Notes under the pieces: model-generated | Database searches by the model: none | Told to the model about the DNA's origin: nothing | What the model saw: the letters and a program-made list of their open reading frames with translations, nothing else | NCBI GenBank assembly: GCA_950295325.1 | Contig: OX485807.1 | Coordinates: forward strand, 20,121,666-20,185,665 | Source of the DNA: Polytrichum commune | Lineage: Eukaryota > Streptophyta > Polytrichopsida > Polytrichales > Polytrichaceae | Direction: 5' to 3' | Length of the DNA stretch: 64,000 nucleotides | Made by a program: the position numbers and the translations under genes | Shown: piece after piece, positions 1,061 through 62,853 of the stretch | How the letters are laid out: each line of letters opens with the position of its first letter | Numbering within the stretch: the stretch's first letter is position 1

Positions 1061-4011
1061 CATGGATGACTGAAATTTGAATGAAATCCATGTCAATCGT
1101 GGAAACATCCAAGTTTGGTATGTTATGCATCCTAACAAATTATGTAGTGAAATATGGCTTGGATGATTGGATTCTGGATGAAAATCCCACTTGGGAAGTG
1201 ACAATGATTGGAACATTGTGGATTCATAAGCTCCAAAAAAACATTTAACAAGGAATGGCAAATAATGATAGGGTTTACGTTTAGTGTTGGTGACACTACA
1301 CGGGAAGTTAACAATTAGCAGTTGAGCAAGAGGAATAGAAGTGGTGGCACTAAGTGCTATATTTTATTGTAGTTCCCCTCTACCACCAACAATGTGGAAG
1401 TGTGGTTACTATGTCATAAATATATCTATATTGTCAAATACACATTTGTCACGTGGATGGTCACATTTTCGTGATGGCGTTTGTTCATCCATCATTTTTG
1501 GGCACCCTCGCATGATGCTCTTCATCATTGCCAAGCTTGCAAGGAGCACAAGATGAGATTCCAATTTCTAGTGCATTGTATAGTGCTCAAGCATGCATAT
1601 GTTAACACAAGGAAACATTATGGAATTTGTGATGAGCAATCAACTATGATGAGTATGCAATAGGGTATAATTTATTGTCGCATGTGTAGCAAGCATGGTG
1701 CTAGTATTCTTCAAAATTGCAAAGTGTCACAATTCCATCCATACCACGTTTAAGTATCATGTTTTCATCCCACCTTATTATCTTTGGTATCAAAACTCAT
1801 TTGTTAACTTCATTCACATCCACCAAGCCCTATCCACAAAAATCAATGTAAATGAAGCAAATGTAATTGCCCACCAACACTAAAACCTAACGTACTTACC
1901 AAGTGTGTTTTTGTGTCAAGTTTTGGTTCCTCTCAAATAGAAAATATAGTCTAGGCCTAACTTGCTTCGTTCTAGTGACCCTTTAACTATCACATGGCAG
2001 TGTATTTTAATGAACTTCATATTCTTAGTAATAGTACCGCCTTTGATGTTGAGAACATGTGACGCAACTATCATTGACATTTGTTATGATCATCCACTTG
2101 TATGTGGAAGACAACTCCTCATTGCAACAAAGAATCAGAAAATTAATCCTCGCTAAGATGTGGAAAGAAAAGACTCTTCATTGCAACGAAGACTAAGAAC
2201 AGGCAAAGACATGTGTCTTGTGCCTTACCTCTACAACACCTGTTAGTTTGGCCCGAGCGCGTGGCATCCGTGCACAAGTGGAAGGTAAGTAGGTGGGTGA
2301 GATGTGATTGGTAGGTAGGTAGGCAAGTTGATACCTTAATAAGTACCACATGCGTCTCAAACCAAAAGACAAACTTCGTCGGTGGAATAATAGATGTGCA
2401 ACCAACTTGATATACCATATATGTAAGTTTTTTATGCTTGTCATTAAACAAATTTGACGCATTCTTGGTCTAATGAATCTTCATGCTACTAATCTAACAT
2501 TTGTCGATGTCATCCACCCCAACAATATATCTTTCAACTGTCAATAGATTGCTCAACACCCCACCATCACAACATTGCACAACTGCTTGGTTGCGCTCCG
2601 CGGGATGAGGGTATCACAGTAGCATACTTCTCTTTTAATTCCGGGGGGTTCCCCATTTGTGGAGAGCACTCAAGTTGTGTACTATGAACTCTTCAACATA
2701 CATCTGTGAATTATCCGAGTGTTTTAATTGCAACCTCTTTCTATGAAAAGAGACCATCATATCCGGAAAGTCAATACCTTTCAAATAAAAATGTAACATT
2801 TTCAATGTTTCAATTGTCTTAGATAAGATTAGTTATGGTTCATCTCCAAGCATGCTATTCAACCCAACAAAAAAAACAAGAAGATTGGATGTCCAAGTGT
2901 AGGCAAAGACAATATATGCGCATGCATCGAAATAAACTCAAAAGTCTTCTCACATTCAAATCTGTAGATGTATTTAACGACCTCTCTTGTTAAGTATGTG
3001 AGAAAGGGGCTACTAATTCATAAGATTCTTAAATCTAAAAGTGTGTATACCTGGAATATTTCAAATTAAACATAATTGTCTAACAGTCAAAATTAGAGAT
3101 TAATTCTGAACTATTTATGGTTTCTCCGAGATTTAATCTTCATTGTCTCTACCAACAACATACCCCATGGAGTGTGGGTTTTCCTTACCAAACTAACAGT
3201 CGAGCAAATATTATGCAATTTCTAAGCATACAAGAAGAACATTTATCATGTGTCAAACACATTCTTCTTGTTCTCTAGAAAAAAATTAAAGTCTTCAAGG
3301 TTACAAGGTGAAACCAACTTGCTAATGCATTTGATAAGCCTAAACATAACTCTTCACACCAACATTTGCAAATGGAAATTTATTTATTTTGCACTCTTTG
3401 TTGTATCTATAGTGGGTGATCTTACATAAGTAGGGGCCGGTTATGATTGTTGTGAAGAAGCACACCGGTCAGAAAAAAGAAGGGGAATGGAGCAATACGA
3501 TTGACTACAAAATGGGCTCTTCGCTAGCCGGGGTTTACACAACGGCCAAGACTTCTGTGCTAGAGGACTTCAACCACGTATGAAAAAATGACATGGTTGC
3601 CATTGCAACATATGTTGCTAGGGGAGTTTTCCAAAGGTCAAGTTTGTTGGGCAACCTCAAACCCTCAAACATGAAACTTAACCTTTAAAGAACTCCAACT
3701 TGAAAATTTTTTTTTTTTAAATTAAAATTTTTTTGTTTCTTTTTCATCTTGTCCACCATACCAGCTATTGCATGAAATAGCCTTGTCTTGGGCGGATATT
3801 CTTGACCTCTTCTTTTCACTTCTTCACTATAGTCTAAACCAATCCTAAGGATATTGACAATCCTTACGATATTTTTGGAGGTTTCCTCCATCAGTTGTTG
3901 AGATCACCTTTGAATTAACATTGTAGTTTCCTCATGGTCCCCAAAGTGGATCAACCTAGATTAATTGTGACAATTTTATGTCATATAGTCATCTCAAACC
4001 GGCCCTTATTC
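1061..4011. other. Repeat-rich intergenic DNA, no gene
   Basis: The stretch 1061-1345 resembles the CACTA-ended MITE at 14141-14469: shared 'catggatga..gaa', 'atgttatgcatcctaac' and a final 'ggtgacact'. The remainder is AT-rich with many short frames and no domain or splice pattern I can defend. Confidence 0.45.
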
Positions 4012-4226
4012 CGTGTCCGGGGAGATTTCTTGGGCATAGTTTGTCGGGATCCTAGTGTTCTCAAGTCCAACCGATTTCATGTTGACATCTTTCGGCTTCT
4101 CTTATTTAGCTTGAAGCATATTCCATAGATTCCTCTCAAACAATAGCTAATCACCCCAAAGTTTTGAACTTCAACCGGTTCATTTGTAACTTTGTAGCGG
4201 TCTATTGGTTGTCCCCGTTCATTGCA
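4012..4226 (+). repeat. Dispersed ~230-bp repeat, copy 2
   Basis: Uninterrupted copy of the repeat described at 445-1060. It begins near 'gtgtccggggagat' and ends near 'ccccgttcattg'. Copies 2-4 share start, order of blocks and end, so the unit is about 215-230 bp. No terminal inverted repeat or poly(A) tail is obvious. Confidence 0.65.
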
Positions 4227-5299
4227 TTTATTATTCCCTTGTTAGTTATGCAAAGTTGTGGTGGGCGCCACCATAACATTATTCAAATCCATAACACTGT
4301 TTTGTGGGACTGAAAATATTCTATGGAATATTTTGTGATATTCTCACATTCAGACTAAATATGGGAATGTCAAAGGATATTTTGTGAAATAATGTGAGTC
4401 CACAAAACAATGTTATGGATCTGAATAATGTTATGACTCTATATGCCATGGTTTGGTATTAGGTGTTCCTTCGTGATAATAGATTTTTCCAATCTATCTA
4501 GTAATAGAAAAACAATTATAGTCACGAATCCCATGTGAAACTAGACTTTATGATAACGATGGATGGTTGTTGTCATCATCATCCTCGTTTGTTAAAGATA
4601 TTGAAGAAAATGAAATGGTAAAAAAAATGGAATATAATATACACAGTATTGTGAAGATAAAAGAACGACAATCATGCCGATTTGAATCTTATAAAGAAAC
4701 CAATAATTAAGAAATAAACTGTGTGGAGGGATTGTTAACTTGCCACTCTCAACGCAATCAATAAATACTTTAAATTGATGAATTTTCATCAAACAACTTC
4801 GTGAAACATCAACCATTCAAGTGCATGAAACCAAAGAAACATTTGATGGTAAAAAACATTTCCACGTCTTGTTTGGCATAGGTAATTGCAACCTCGATGA
4901 TTTGACGTAGTAACATGCAATCCAACTCCAGTATAAAGTGGCCTTGACTTATTGATGAGCCAAGTTCGTGTTTGTGTTTCTTCCAAGGGCTCTAGTATGC
5001 CGCACACTACTAGTGCCAACGCAATTTATTAAGTAAGGGAGATTGGGTGTGCATATTGTTTATGTAAAAGAGGGTTTAAACCCAAAGCCCCATTATTGAT
5101 CTCAAGTAAACTTTGAGGTTTAAGTTTCCCAAAATGGTCACATGTGATCATTTGGTGAAACTTGGTAATACCTTCCTACTTCACTTCACACTAGAGTTGA
5201 GGGAGTAAGGCATCAAGGAAGTTTGGATGGATCAAAGGCTTACCTACAATCTTATTTAACATACAAGGATAATGTTTTGTGGTCTAGTGGGATGTGTAT
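4227..5299. other. Intergenic stretch, no gene seen
   Basis: The block 4275-4440 contains an imperfect inverted repeat: 'gccaccataacattattcaaatcc' at the left and 'ggatctgaataatgttatgac' at the right, so it may be a small foldback MITE. Otherwise nothing is recognised. Confidence 0.4.
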
Positions 5300-6690
5300 C
5301 AAGCGCACCTCAAGAGGTAGGTCTAACACAAAACCAAGAGACCATGACACTTCAAAATCGTACAAAACCTCGGTCATTATAGCTTAATTTGTAGAAGACC
5401 CACATGAACGAGATGGTAACAAAACAACATTTGGTTAAGCGCCCCAGTCGCAAGTGTCTTTTACCCTATAAGGTATGTGGGTGTTATTCGGTTTGTTTTT
5501 CATGCTCTCCAACTTCTACTTATCAAATTTACACAATGAAACTTGTGTTGTGATGAAGCACAAGCAAAACTCGGGACCTTCCATGATCTGCTCAAGGTTA
5601 TCAGAAAGACATTTTTGTTGATTTCTTAATTGAACACATAAATCCTTTGAGTTGTGTTCACTATTGAGTGTGGTGTAATTAGCAAAATTTGTAGACGTAG
5701 TCCAATCTCTTTTAAGCGAACGTCTTTATGATGCTTGTCCTTTGATCCTCACCTAACCACACACCAATCAAACATAAGCAATTTGCATAAGAAAAGTAAC
5801 CAAATTACACCTACAAACCTTATACTTGAAGGCCCATGCCCACACACAAAACTTCAATTCAAGTCTCCATGGTACGACGTATGGAGGAGTTCAAGGGCGC
5901 TTGATAGTTTTAATCTTAGTCACAGCTCATGGCCATAGTGTAAAGTGGAGAGAGAGAGAGAGGCAATCATCGTATGCAAATGTACCTCTCATTCATCCGA
6001 CATAAAAGCCACGAAGTAGTATACAACTTGAGGCTACTTTGTTCAGTTGATTTGATACCAAAATAAGCTTTAAAGACCCCTAACAATTCCACCCAAAGTC
6101 ATATGAGATGAATCGGCAACAACCCTAAGGTAGATGGATCTTAAGTGGCTCGTTTCCTCAATCGGGTCCTTGTACTTAATTGGTACGTGGTTTGGCGAGG
6201 ATCAAAGAGCAAACATCATTAAAGACACATGTTTAAAAAAGATCGGACGACGTCTTCAACTATTAATAACTACTCCACACTCAACAGTCAACACAATCAG
6301 GACAACATGTGTATCTAGTTAAGAAATCAACAAACGAGCACTTCTAATAACCATAACTAAATAAAGGGAGCTCCATATTTCAATCCAATTCTTGCAGATC
6401 TTTAATCTTCAACGAGTTGACGCAACACGGAATATTATTTCTTGAGAGTGTGTACATCTAATCGGTAGAAGTTAAAGAACATCTTAAACAAACCAAATAA
6501 CACCCACATATCTTACAAGGTAAAACACACGTGCGACTGGGGCGCTCAACCAAATGTCGTTTTGTTACCATCTCATTCACGTAGCTCTTCTACAAAACAA
6601 GCTATAACGAATGAGATTTTGTACGATTTTGAAGTGTCACGGTCTCTCTTGGTTTTGTTTTGTTGTGTGTTAGACCCACCTCTTCAAGTT
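5300..6690. repeat. Long foldback (inverted repeat) of about 1.4 kb
   Basis: The left arm (about 5300-5790) and right arm (about 6170-6690) are inverted copies of each other over most of their length, with mismatches and small indels. Matching pairs include 5318-5345 with 6640-6680, 5455-5516 with 6461-6530, 5655-5690 with 6255-6300 and 5723-5775 with 6185-6225. The outer part of each arm is homologous to the interior of the MITEs at 14523-15020 and 41389-41887. A block at 39755-39830 matches the inner part. A transcript across it could fold into a long hairpin; that is inference. Confidence 0.7.
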
Positions 6691-57444: not shown

Positions 57445-57817
57445 TTAATTGTGTGCGAGGAGATTTGCAGGTGACAGAGCGGAGGGATATTTGTGGAAAT
57501 TAGTGTTCATTGCTCTGTGCGAGGGGTGGGAGGAGAGGCGGAGATTGCGTGGTGAATGGTGGTTACGTACTTTCCGTTAATGCCTTGAAGTGCGGGGGGA
57601 GCATTGTTCCTGACGGCCAAATTTGCTGCACATCCGGGCCATCAACATATATAGAAAGAAATGGAGAGTGACCTTGTAACCCTAATTGCTTGGCAAGAGT
57701 AGGCAGTAGGCAGGTATGTAAACGTCAGGCAAGTAGCTCTAGCATCTGGGGATCTTTCCGAAGATCTTTCACATTCTCACAACGAAGTAATTCTCTTCTT
57801 TTCCTTCAGGAGACAGC
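57219..57817 (-). promoter_or_regulatory. Upstream region of the conserved gene, with a long GT/GC/GA microsatellite
   Basis: A compound simple repeat runs 57381-57442: (GT)n, (GC)n then (GA)n of about 38 bp on +. The surrounding 57230-57540 is purine/pyrimidine skewed, with the CT strand as the sense strand of the gene, as is common in plant 5' leaders. Confidence 0.5.
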
Positions 57818-58043
57818 AGTGTCCAGGGATATTTTTGGACATCGTCGGTCAAGATCCGAGGGTTTCCAAGTCCAACCGCTTACATGTTGACATCTCTCAA
57901 GTTTTCTTTACCGATTTCAGGTATATTCTATAGATTCCCCGACAAGGATCCGTAATTTTCCTGGAGTCTTGAACTGCAACTGGTTATTTTCAAACTCAAC
58001 CGGTTCATCTGGGACCTAGCAGTTGGTTCTCTCCGTTCATTGT
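57818..58043 (+). repeat. Dispersed ~230-bp repeat, copy 4
   Basis: Uninterrupted copy ending 'ctctccgttcattgtcac'. It lies 168 bp before the Harbinger element at 58212. Confidence 0.7.
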
Positions 58044-58220
58044 CACAACATTTATGTTTCTTTTCATTCCTTTAGGGGTCTAAGGTAAGGGTGGGTCCAC
58101 GGTCAAAGAAACTCCAAATCAAGTAATACTATTGGTCGAGAGCAATCTTTGGACCCAACAAATTTACAATAGGGTTCACGTCTAAGATTTGAAAAAGAGA
58201 AGAGACACTTAGGGCAAGGC

Positions 58221-58291
58221 CAGTGGCCCTGCATCTGCATCCGCATCCCCGCTTTATCATCCGGGATGCGGATGCAGATGCAGGGCCACTG
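58221..58291. repeat. Perfect 29-bp hairpin at the left end of the Harbinger element
   Basis: Arms 58221-58249 and 58263-58291 are exact inverted copies around a 13-base loop. The arm contains the inner part of the terminal repeat (CATCTGCATCCGCATCC). At the right end a decayed version of the same fold spans about 62765-62834. A second hairpin lies at 58343-58385 (arms with AGCAGA and CCCTGCATAA). Terminal hairpins may be transposase-binding sites or simply older inverted duplications. Confidence 0.85.
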
Positions 58292-58554
58292 CCCAGTCTT
58301 CCCTGTAAACTGAAATCTTGGATGAATTTTTTTGCAGCATCTAGAGCAGACCCTGCATAACGGCAGGTTATGCAGGGACTCTGCTATAGTTATATAAAGC
58401 ATCATTACCCTGTCTTTATCCTACAAGACAATAAGTACCTGCCGGTACATGGGTAAAATATGACGCACCTGCTGGCACATGGGTAAGTTAGGGGTAATAA
58501 GTTAGTTAGGGTTTAGGTATATGAACTAATATGATGCGATTAATCTCGACCAGC

Positions 58555-58555
58555 C

Positions 58556-58586
<31 letters not shown>

Positions 58587-58690
58587 GTATATGTATATGT
58601 ATATGTATGTATGTATGTATATGTGCATGTGTATGTATGTATATATATATGTGTGTATATATGTATATATATGTATTTAATTTATTTTAT
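58555..58690. repeat. TA / TATG microsatellite
   Basis: Compound (TA)n, (TATG)n and (TTTAA)n tract within the left part of the Harbinger element. The 63-codon frame over it is a repeat artefact. Confidence 0.85.
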
Positions 58691-59246
58691 TTAATTTATT
58701 TAATTTTCCAAGTGCCGGCTAATTCCTTCTTCGTTGTAATGACAACCGGCCAAGAACTTATGTATTGATAAGTAAGCCGGTTTTTCCAATGTAGCAAAAT
58801 TATGAAATGCAATAATGAAGCAGAGGCTTTGCTTGTTCACCACTCACGAAACAACTACAAGCTTATAACAGACTCTTAATTTATAACTTGAATTAACTTT
58901 CTCGAATTAACTTTCCAATTGACATATTCACGAATTAACTGATTTTTTTGAATAACTTATTGACAAATAATTGACCTATTGATCATATAATGAACTGAAT
59001 AAATATTGTTTACTTTGAGTTGTTTAATATTAAATTAGTCAATGAATAAAGGGATAAATTTATTAGAATTTATTATGGATTAAGTTTAGAATTTGATATT
59101 AATAATCCGTTAAATTTTAATATTCACTGGAGCAATAAATAAATATTTACACAGTTAATGTCAAAGTTAGCCCACAATATATAGAAAAAAATGAATATGA
59201 TTATTTGAGTATCAAAATAAAAACATTACATATTAAACCGTCTTAT

Positions 59247-60275
59247 CTAAGAGCCACCCGCATCAGCATTCAAATCAAGTGTGCCATATAAACTAGAACT
59301 TCTTCCTAGACCTCCTTCTTCTTCTTCTTCTTCTTCCACTTCTTCTTCATCTATAATAATCACTGGAGGTTCTTGGGTTGAACGTGGGAGTTCTTTCCGC
59401 AACTTCATCACGTATTTTTGCCGCTCCAAGTATGCTTGTTCTTCTCTTAATTTGAAATATGCTTCAGATAACGTATCAGGTTGTCGCCCGGGACGACTGA
59501 ACAGTGCATCATCATTAGCATCCTTTAGTGTTCTGGCCTTCTCCGCAGACGATTTACTCATAAGTTTGAATGCCTCTGTTGCACTTTTCAATGCAGCCAT
59601 ATGTAGATCTTGGTTGAACCTTGCTGTTTTTGCACTTTTTTGTCCTTCCGGTCGTTGTAATTCGCCAGTTGGACTTCCACCCGAGCCTTGCCCTGCTTGA
59701 CCTTCACCCATAGTCAAATCGATATCAATAGCTCTGCGCTTATTAGGAGTGTTTTGTACCCCTCTTGCTAGATCTCTGTAAAACCACTGTGGATAGTCCT
59801 TCAAGTACAACCAACAATGCATAAATCTAAACGGTTGCTTGTCCTTAGGATTTCCAGCTTTATCAAAAATCGTCTTTTGCGCATCTTTGTACATCACTTG
59901 CGCCTTCTGTTGTACATCCTCCTTTGTAGTGCCTGATTCGTTTAGTGCTTTTACATTCAAATAGTATCCATTATATATACTGCACTCTCTTTGTATTAAG
60001 CACCACCTAGACTCCAAAGACTTTGGAGTTCTCTTGCAATTATTGACCTCCAATGAATTAAAATGATCGGCCACCTTTTGCAAAAATGTGGCCGAGGTTT
60101 GGTTGATGCCTTGTATAGGATCTTGCGAAATATGCACATGACTCCTACACAATTGAATATCCTTACATGGGCTAAATTTTTTGGATCGAAACGATTTGCC
60201 AACATTTCCACTAGAAACAGGTACACTTTCCATTTTATGTATTTGAGAATGATATTTTGCGACAAAGAATATCAT
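59247..60275 (-). CDS. Harbinger ORF1, Myb/trihelix-like DNA-binding protein, ~328-342 aa
   Basis: The accessory protein of the transposon, thought to bind DNA and bring the transposase to element ends in the nucleus. The frame is open for 342 codons from ATG 60275; ATG at codon 15 (MESVPVSSG) is an equally good start. Residues about 30-130 show the fold common to plant trihelix/Myb-like proteins annotated near NAM-associated domains: DIQLCRSHVHISQDPIQGIN, TFLQKVADHF, RTPKSLESRWCLIQRECS and a GYY turn, then FRFMHCWLYLKDYPQW. The C-terminal half has an Ala/Lys-rich helix and a Glu-rich tail (EEEVEEEEEEEGG). A tryptophan often found after the first helix is His here. No stop or frameshift is seen, in contrast to the transposase. 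Confidence 0.85.
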   Translation of the reverse strand: MIFFVAKYHSQIHKMESVPVSSGNVGKSFRSKKFSPCKDIQLCRSHVHISQDPIQGINQTSATFLQKVADHFNSLEVNNCKRTPKSLESRWCLIQRECSIYNGYYLNVKALNESGTTKEDVQQKAQVMYKDAQKTIFDKAGNPKDKQPFRFMHCWLYLKDYPQWFYRDLARGVQNTPNKRRAIDIDLTMGEGQAGQGSGGSPTGELQRPEGQKSAKTARFNQDLHMAALKSATEAFKLMSKSSAEKARTLKDANDDALFSRPGRQPDTLSEAYFKLREEQAYLERQKYVMKLRKELPRSTQEPPVIIIDEEEVEEEEEEEGGLGRSSSLYGTLDLNADAGGS

Positions 60276-60523
60276 AATTCTTCGTGTCGACTATGTATAC
60301 AAAATTTGGACAAAAAATCAAAAGATATATTTTTACTTTAGTATATTATAAAATAAAAGTATAGTTTGCTTTTATTTTATTTTTGATTATATAACTATAT
60401 TTTATTCAAAAATAACAACCAACTTTTACAAATGTAAAATTATGCAATTATTGCAATGTATACTTGATATAGAGACATGTTTTCGTTAATTGTGTGTTAG
60501 TTTGTATGTTAAAGTTTTTGAAA

Positions 60524-61742
60524 ATGGATGTATTTCATAGACAATCAAGAGAACGATTCAGAAGAATTTTAGAAGATGATGTTGATGACCATGAATTGGC
60601 AATGGGTTATAGTTTGTTGGAAGATCTGCTTGACGTGCAACCATTGCCCAAAAAACAAGGAGGGTCTGTACCTGGTCGTTTAGCATATCGCAAGAGAGGC
60701 AGATTAGTGCATCATGAGATAATAATGAGAGATTATTTTTGTGTATGATGATGTCCAATTCCACACTCGGTTTAGGATGTCAAAACGATTATTTTTAAAA
60801 GTGGTCGAGGCAATATGTGCGAACGATTCTTATTTTGTACAAAAAACTGATGCAACTGATACACTTGGCTTGTCAAGTATCCAAAAATGCGTAGCTGCTA
60901 TTCGCATGATAGGATATGGTGTGCCCTCTGATGCAACAGATGAATACACAAGAGCAGCAAAAAGTACAGCCATGGAGAGCAAGAAGCAGTTTGTGAGGGC
61001 TATTCGTGTTGTTTATGAAAAACAATACTTACGACAACCCACACGAGAAGATTTGGAAAAGCAAATGTCAATCAACAAAGCAAGAGGTTGGCCATGTATG
61101 TTTGGCTCAATAGATTGCATGCATTACCAATGGAAGAATTGTCCAGTAACATGGAATGGACAATATTTAGACAAAGATGGCAACATGTCTATTATTTTGG
61201 AAGCAATAGCAGACCAATCTCTTTGGATTTGGCATGCATTTTTTGGAACCGCGGGATCCAACAACGATATCAATGTTCTACAAAGAAGTCCATTGGTAAG
61301 AAATTTTTTATCTGGGGAGTATGACGATATATCCTTTGACGTGAACTCTCGACAGTATTCCAAATATTATCTTCTAGCAGATGGCATATATCCAAAGTGG
61401 TCAATTTTTGTGCAATCTATAAAAGATCCACAAGGTGAAAAAAGAAAACACTTTGCCAACAAATAAGAAGCAGCCAGAAAAGATGTGGAGAGGTGTTTTG
61501 GGGTGCTGAAAGCGAGATGGTCAATTCTACAACAACCAAGTCGTTTGTGGGGTCTGTGTGATATTGAGAATGTGGTAATTGCATGTTACATCATGCATAA
61601 TATGATCATCGAGGATGAAAGATATCATAATCTATCAGCAGTTCTAGAACCTGTGCGAGTTGAACATACACATCGAAATCTTAACTTTGAAGAGTATCTC
61701 CAAGGACAAGTTGAAATTCAAAACAGAGAGCAACATTTTTAA
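60524..61742 (+). pseudogene. PIF/Harbinger DDE transposase, one frameshift and one nonsense codon
   Basis: The gene starts at ATG 60524 (an upstream in-frame ATG at 60494 is possible) with MDVFHRQSRERFRRILEDD. The frame is lost in a T5 run at 60736-60740; homology continues in the next frame with YDDVQFHTRFRMSKRLFLK. The catalytic region follows: first Asp in MFGSIDCMHYQWKNCP, second Asp in GSNNDINVLQRSPL. A TAA at 61464-61466 then interrupts HFANK-EAARKDVERCFGV, just before the third acidic residue (Glu of DVER), so even a frame-corrected product would lack the full DDE triad. After the stop the frame stays open to 61742, ending in the usual 'IENVVIACYIMHNMIIEDE' helix region. Both lesions are single-base-type changes, which suggests recent loss. 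Confidence 0.9.
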
Positions 61743-62165
61743 TTAAGGAATGACCTCATAGAACATTTATGGAGTTTGAGGGGGAATTTATGACTTTTAG
61801 GTGTGTTGAGGGTGATTAGATTATGTTATATTTAGATTCATTTTAATAGATTCTAATCATCATTCAATATCGGATTATAAGGTGCTTGCATTTATTACGT
61901 TCATATGAATAGTAGAGACATGTGTATGAGGGATCCCGTGATAGCGGTTATTCTTGATGGACTGAATAAAATGCAATTATTTGTTTTTGGAATCTTGTTT
62001 TATACAAATAGATATATAATGGTGGTGGGTGGTTAAGTAATAAAATTCAATCATGGATTATTGAAATGTGGATTGAATAGCACTTAGTAAGTAATAGTAA
62101 TAGCAACATTGTGAATGTTTAATGCCCAAAATCTAAACCCTAAAATAATAAAATAGATGTAATAT

Positions 62166-62580
62166 ATGATTATCTAAATAATTTTTCATGTAATTATCTG
62201 ATTATAATGTAATCATCTGATTATAATATAATTATCTATTATAATGTAATTATCTGATTATAATGTAATTATCTTAATATGATGTAATCATCTGATTATA
62301 ATGTAATTATCTGATTATAATTTAATTATCTGATTATAATGTAATCATCTGATTATAATGTAATTATCTATTATAATGTAATTATCTAATTATAATGTAA
62401 TTATCTGAATATAATGTAATTATCTGATATAATGTAATTATCTGAATATAATGTAATTATCTGAATATAATGTAATTATCTGAATATAATGTAATTATCT
62501 GATTATAATGTAATTATCTGAATATAATGTAATTATCTGATTATAATGTAATTATCTGATTTTGTTGTAATTATGTGATT
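62166..62580. repeat. AT-rich minisatellite, ~19-bp unit, about 20 copies
   Basis: Repeated unit ATTATAATGTAATTATCTG with variants (gaatataatg, shortened 17-bp forms, one 'tgttgtaattatgtg' end copy). It lies between the transposase gene and the right end of the Harbinger element. Units abut with no spacers, so this is not a CRISPR array. Confidence 0.9.
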
Positions 62581-62853
62581 AGTTATATAAAAATAAGATA
62601 AATATAGTAATATATATAATAAAATAAATTTCTGAAATGAGTGACTAGGAAGGGCAGCCTGTCCTAGTCGAGTCGAGCAAAGTAAGAAGAAGTACCGTAA
62701 ATGAGTAATTATTACCTACTTTACGTCGACATGGTTGGGATGCAGGGTGATGAGTGGGTGCCCTTCCCTGCATATGCCATCGCATCCCGGACAGAGGCCC
62801 ATTTCTGTTTCCGGATGCGGATGCAGATGCAGGCAAGACTGGGCTTGCTCTTA

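Follow-up and report, generated by a model that had tools for sequence, protein, structure and literature searches.

A full-length but inactivated Pong-like PIF/Harbinger transposon in Polytrichum commune

A transposon of the Harbinger type lies at positions 58212-62850 of a 64,000-nucleotide stretch of contig OX485807.1 of Polytrichum commune (the window, in what follows). It raises the question of whether a copy that looks nearly intact when read by itself is a young insertion, and whether it or its close relatives could still move. A preliminary description had credited it with both ends, a TTA duplication, an open first open reading frame (ORF1) and a transposase with only two lesions, and had taken the copy to be probably young, with sisters that may still be active. 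By comparison with related copies in the same genome (408 Mb in 64 contigs were searched), we find that the element is a full-length but inactivated plant transposon of the Pong/Harbinger type. The account that we prefer, at a probability of about 93%, is that a full-length Pong-like (PIF/Harbinger) cut-and-paste DNA transposon was inserted at TTA by a then functional transposase, and was later inactivated in place. The coordinates of its features are collected in Table 1.

The element has the hallmarks of the PIF/Harbinger superfamily, namely a 3-bp TWA duplication and short terminal inverted repeats. Both ends and the TTA duplication, as first described, are present in the window and recur in relatives. 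With at most one mismatch, the genome contains 201 places with TWA joined to the left end, where a reversed control gives 2, and 455 with TWA joined to the right end, where the control gives 7. Since these counts far exceed the controls, the terminal ends are not products of chance. A search of the genome with the whole element gave at least 92 matching stretches, the element itself counted. Both ends could be located in nine copies, and in eight of these the TWA duplications match exactly: the window copy, L031, L032, L035, L037, L039, L042 and L047 (that of L039 was recognised on a second reading of its printed ends). The doubt raised at the outset, that the flanked ends might not be found together elsewhere, is thus answered by seven other copies. 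In L033 the flanks are mismatched, with TCA on one side and TTA on the other, and L031 has a left end that is degraded at its first bases.

Table 1. Features of the element in the window, and copies of a second Harbinger family elsewhere in the genome
Feature	Position	Strand	Basis or remark
Whole element, Pong-like PIF/Harbinger transposon	58212..62850	+	4639 bp; window sequence and genome comparison
Target-site duplication TTA, left copy	58209..58211		read in window
Target-site duplication TTA, right copy	62851..62853		read in window
Left terminal repeat core	58212..58224	+	TWA-anchored genome count against control
Right terminal repeat core	62838..62850	-	TWA-anchored genome count against control
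Left subterminal palindrome, two 27-bp arms of GATGCR repeats	58223..58289		folding z -10.35; 27/27 Watson-Crick pairs; found in many relatives
ORF1, open	59247..60233	-	328 amino acids from the Met common to relatives (347 stop to stop); Pfam PF14303
Region between divergent genes, presumed common promoter region	60234..60523		gene layout
Transposase gene, broken	60524..61793	+	Pfam Plant_tran PF04827, DDE_Tnp_4 PF13359; blocks GSIDCMH, NMIIEDE
Frameshift: private 11-bp deletion behind T5 run, at TTGTG microhomology	60736..60743	+	alignment with relatives
Presumed catalytic Asp codons	61113..61115 (first), 61380..61382 (second)	+	triad by motif and spacing
Premature TAA, private	61464..61466	+	sense codon in 10/10 aligned relatives
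Presumed catalytic Glu codon	61488..61490	+	triad by motif and spacing
Premature TAA, third lesion	61740..61742	+	Gln codon in 11/12 relatives with anchor; TAA in L042
19-bp tandem repeat, ~21 copies, within element	62188..62581		
Third exact 17-bp motif copy	62814..62830	+	motif of both left-palindrome arms
Copies of the family with a 489-amino-acid frame	L056 C1:54700600; L057 C3:21196392; L058 C3:49745470; L059 C5:40982880		three contigs

The pieces of the broken gene identify a Harbinger-type transposase with an Asp-Asp-Glu (DDE) triad: the main piece matches PF04827 (E-value 7e-60), and the C-terminal piece matches both PF04827 and PF13359 (the latter with E 1.1e-6). In the open frame of one relative (L034), 35 residues separate the D of YLLADGIYP from the E of KDVERCFG. 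Such a DD35E spacing is typical of the PIF/Harbinger superfamily. A search of solved structures gave a single irrelevant match (E 0.54). ORF1 and the transposase diverge from a gap of 290 bp. Published Pong primers target the blocks GTIDCMH and NMIVEDE (PMC5543537), from each of which the corresponding block of the window differs by one residue, and the PIF block GAMDGTH of the same source is not found, as this position reads GSIDCMH. From these diagnostic blocks, the element appears to belong to the Pong branch; its gene layout is divergent. Since Medicago PIF-like elements vary in the order of their two genes (PMC2213677), gene layout is not a strong mark for classification.

An autonomous copy has an intact ORF1 and an intact transposase between intact ends; in the window copy, the transposase is broken at three places. 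The first two lesions were read from an alignment of the coding core of this copy and ten relatives (L031-L039 and L042). Further copies that were fetched (L040, L041 and L043-L050) are fragmentary or more diverged, and stand outside the core alignment and the counts of codons, trees and ratios of nonsynonymous to synonymous substitution rates (dN/dS) given below. The first lesion, a frameshift at a run of T nucleotides, is real, but it is not the extra base for which it had been taken. The run occupies the same five positions in all nine alignable relatives, as TTTTT in six (L031, L032 and L036-L039) and as CTTTT in three (L033-L035), and directly behind it 11 bases that all nine possess are gone from the window copy. 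A run shorter by one base, as predicted for the relatives, was not seen; the four Ts of L033-L035 reflect a C substitution at the first position. (L042 is deleted at this site, and L036 has 4 extra bases nearby.) In the sister copy L031, the stretch missing from the window sits between two TTGTG repeats. A deletion between short repeats is the usual mark of slippage or microhomology deletion, and the 11-bp deletion probably arose between the two repeats in one of these ways.

The second lesion, a premature TAA, is likewise real and private, the ten relatives having CAA (four), CAG (four) or CAT (two) at this codon. It was said to fall right before the catalytic Glu, but is eight codons upstream of the presumed residue; as the stop precedes the Glu codon, the fragment that ends there lacks the catalytic Glu. 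The lesions do not end here: a second premature TAA follows, beyond which the frame has 16 more codons before a TGA at 61791-61793. C>T and G>A changes make up 30 of the 46 substitutions private to the window copy, and the stops may have originated by deamination.

Neither the frameshift (0 of 9) nor the first stop (0 of 10) occurs in any relative alignable at these places. Both therefore post-date the split from the sister copies, as the preliminary description implied, and the contrary outcome, in which related copies share the two lesions, did not occur. This agrees with the original account, in which a copy with an extra T and one stop is very young and has active sisters, as does the number of private substitutions outside simple repeats, which is lowest in the window copy (46 of 3799 sites, against 92 of 3845 in L031 and 88 of 3841 in L032). 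However, hardly any credence can be given to that account, because the equal length of the T run in 9/9 relatives and the deletion that causes the shift refute the extra T, a third lesion is present, and neither of the two closest sisters has an unbroken gene left. It could further be supposed that the window copy still yields transposase by splicing, or by programmed frameshifting and readthrough, and introns are known in some plant PIF transposase genes (PMC5543537). The probability of this is practically negligible, since the uninterrupted frames of L033 (446 amino acids) and L034 (434 amino acids) cross the places of the lesions, and the first two lesions are in none of the aligned relatives.

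Checked codon by codon, one of the ten relatives (L034) has both ORFs open. In L033 only the transposase is open, and ORF1 is broken; L037 and the window copy have an open ORF1 and a broken transposase; and L031, L032, L035, L036, L038, L039 and L042 are broken in both genes. Thus, the expectation of active sisters fails for the two closest ones, and what is left of it concerns L034, in which both genes are open but no right end was seen at its right side. We have rejected L034 as a complete autonomous copy for now: its homology to the element stops within TA-rich sequence, and the ~1.2 kb past this break show no right end, although a nested insertion may lie further out. A right-end-like match with one mismatch lies ~330 bp inside its left end (~1437-1451 in the oriented copy).

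In a tree of the coding core, the window copy groups with L031 and L032 in a clade whose internal branch is very short and poorly supported, a pattern such as would be seen after a burst, and L033, L034, L035 and L037 form a second, similar group. The closest two copies of the window's subfamily differ by ~4% in the coding core. At plant substitution rates of 7e-9 and 1.3e-8 per site per year, the window copy would be roughly 1.7 or 0.9 million years old, respectively; the estimate is rough, as methylated elements mutate faster. The copy looks relatively but not strikingly young. What survives of its supposed youth is that it has diverged least within its clade, with the shortest branch, but its 46 private substitutions compare with 1-2 differences in 1601 bp in another Harbinger family (see below).

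The dN/dS ratios point to decay in the copies themselves. Between the two groups they are 0.13-0.31 in both genes (0.15-0.30 for the window copy against L033, L034, L035 and L037). Inside the window's clade they reach 0.58-1.00 for the transposase and 0.64-1.45 for ORF1, and inside the second group 0.37-0.60 and 0.39-1.07, the within-group values resting on 6-20 synonymous differences. The window copy itself gives 1.00 (transposase) and 1.45 (ORF1) against L031, and 0.58 and 0.75 against L032. As ratios are low between the groups and high within them, the active lineages were under selection that was relaxed in the copies. L036 does not fit simply, with ratios to the window's clade of 0.51-0.55 for the transposase and 0.27-0.30 for ORF1. 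This copy is possibly a mosaic: its synonymous divergence (dS) from the window copy is 0.132 in the transposase and 0.246 in ORF1, which suggests exchange between copies.

According to the account that we prefer, the element would have entered a TTA site through a transposase functional at that time, and its ORF1 and DDE transposase would have been transcribed apart from the common 290-bp region. After insertion it would have decayed at a nearly neutral rate. The deletion, probably between the TTGTG repeats, shifts the transposase frame, and two stops arose at codons that encode Gln in close relatives, one of them ahead of the catalytic Glu. The window copy cannot supply a whole transposase, and is at best non-autonomous, an element that intact relatives could move in trans.

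Several observations weigh against this account, or against parts of it. An empty insertion site was not found: the matches listed for the two flanks, 45 and 40 in number, cover only parts of them and none the full length (a dispersed repeat of ~226 bp on the left, partial repeats on the right). The dN/dS ratios of the window's clade rest on only 6-16 synonymous differences, those against L032 (0.58-0.75) fall below 1, and the transposase ratio of the window copy to L036 is 0.55 despite the position of L036 outside the clade. Furthermore, the private changes of the window copy are nearly threefold denser in coding (36 of 2155) than in noncoding sequence (10 of 1644; Fisher P 0.0026), an excess that plain neutral decay does not predict and that is absent in both L031 and L032. 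Finally, exchange between copies may blur the dating, and the third lesion, which is also in L042, may be recurrent or exchanged.

ORF1, correctly described as open, is presumed to encode a DNA-binding, guiding protein. It matches the NAM-associated profile PF14303 (E 7.8e-8), and no model of the Myb/SANT type, the kind of domain expected of ORF1 in this superfamily, was listed up to E 1. That this gene is open over 328 amino acids, as ORF1 also is in L034 and L037, could mean that it has been kept by selection, whether because the host uses it as a gene or because it helps relatives. We consider this very improbable. The ORF1 dN/dS values against the two sisters, given above, speak against it, ORF1 is broken in both sisters, and its private changes are at least as dense as those of the dead transposase (19 of 995 against 17 of 1160). 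From the load of private substitutions, ~0.8-1.5 stops are expected per gene, and the probability of none in ORF1 is 0.33-0.47. With so few expected stops, an open ORF1 needs no selection, and two stops in the transposase with none in ORF1 are unremarkable. With two dead sisters and dN/dS ratios of 0.58-1.45 within this trio of copies, the open ORF1 of the window looks like a chance survival.

We also considered whether the window copy could still be mobile in trans, using its ends and proteins from intact relatives. Ends of this kind are shared by smaller elements. Among the first 100 places listed for each end type, from which candidates were picked by eye, several places show left and right ends that face each other a few hundred bp apart. 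All five pairs that were fetched have matching TWA duplications, the script having checked for TWA at both ends only; four are 386-390 bp long (three of these are 90-93% alike) and one is 791 bp. These five are miniature inverted-repeat transposable elements (MITEs). L047, an 891-bp derivative, has a left end of the window type. Because MITEs and deletion derivatives carry the same kind of ends, trans-mobilisation in the group is suggested. The window copy retains both ends and the duplication, and open frames exist for the transposase in L033 and L034 and for ORF1 in L034 and L037. Against this, no recent copy of the window's subfamily was found, the closest two being the ~4% apart noted above, and the C>T load of the window copy suggests long silencing. 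Continued mobility of this copy is therefore rather unlikely. In L037 (oriented ~419-1451 and ~1455-5762), an element of ~1 kb with the same kind of ends stands head to head with a full-length copy; the two are separated by a single TAA, and one appears inserted in the duplication of the other. A text search of the literature for a published name of these ends gave nothing related (papers with just one search word would escape it).

The left end has a further feature, the palindrome of GATGCR repeats. A 17-bp motif occurs in three exact copies in the element, as an inverted pair at the left end (58231-58247, minus strand; 58265-58281, plus strand) and as a single copy at the right end, which has a weaker palindromic form (folding z -2.80). 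Among 18 left ends (17 distinct), 24 cells are changed on both sides of a pair, where shuffles give 9.9 (none of 500 reaches 24) and slid controls 0-11; the structure was taken from one of the tested sequences, and kinship inflates such counts. The pair count for these 18 ends includes neither L041 nor the small neighbour of L037 (17 and 16 of 27 pairs). Pairs with double-sided change number 9, where shuffles give 5.7 (13 of 500 reach 9), and pair types show no excess in number (24 against 24.3). Of 40 further TWA-anchored left ends (L060-L099), chosen from the left-end places listed, 26 beat all 40 of their own shuffles, which were home-made and meant to preserve dinucleotides, and 14 do not; 21 of the 40 reach 16/20 pairs. 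Two perfect forms of the palindrome, with swapped motif order, are represented by the window type and by L073, L078, L094 and L095.

In a zebrafish Harbinger element, the ORF1 protein binds the ends and takes the transposase into the nucleus (PMC2836001). By analogy, the left palindrome would probably be a doubled binding site, presumably for the ORF1 protein. A broader proposal, which we advance tentatively and regard as possible rather than probable, is that the GATGCR palindrome of this Pong-like group, whose arms change together between subfamilies, is a docking site for two ORF1 proteins or a hairpin-forming end. It might make the two ends unequal and so order the assembly of the transposition complex, its palindromy being maintained by selection or by conversion from arm to arm. 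Among the papers listed by text searches for palindromes or hairpins at Harbinger ends, none was clearly on topic. The covarying palindromic end is a testable candidate docking site.

The element belongs to a known kind of transposon, of which it is an additional, ordinary member, and it settles no open question. Rice Pong and Ping resemble it in their TTA/TAA duplication, ORF1 and DDE transposase, near-identical blocks and associated MITEs, whereas the window element appears to differ in its terminal repeat, and has divergent genes and a palindromic GATGCR left end. In rice Pong, the two genes run in the same direction. Maize PIF, Medicago MtPH, DcMaster and PePIF1 share the superfamily, the size, the 3-bp duplication and the combination of ORF1 and transposase (PMC2213677, PMC6327408), but the terminal motif G(N)5GTT required in the Medicago survey (PMC2213677) is absent from the left end of the window element, and the genes of PePIF1 are arranged head to tail (PMC6327408) rather than divergently. 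The excerpted literature gave no clear answer on divergent gene layout in Pong-like elements. With Tourist-like MITEs, represented in this genome by the five short elements described above, the window element shares the kind of ends and the matching TWA duplications; it differs in being full length with coding genes.

As a worked example, the locus illustrates how an intact-looking single transposon can be misread without its relatives: the lesions, their privacy and the near-neutral decay emerge only by comparison. The same genome holds a better object of study. A search with the transposase gave at least 150 matches (scored out of 669 first-look candidates), and among the matches listed those outside the window's group have 38-67% protein identity, many with open frames. 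Five of the matches listed, each with a transposase frame of 489 amino acids, score equally. Four of them were fetched (Table 1); they belong to another Harbinger family, and any two are separated by 1-2 differences in 1601 bases. To judge from these near-identical open copies, this family probably moved very recently, the alternative being a recent segmental duplication. Being far younger-looking, it, rather than the window copy, looks like the best place to seek recent Harbinger movement here.

The dispersed repeat in the left flank (window positions 57817-58042) has 80-83% identity to the 39 other places that score best among those listed, out of 4232 first-look candidates.

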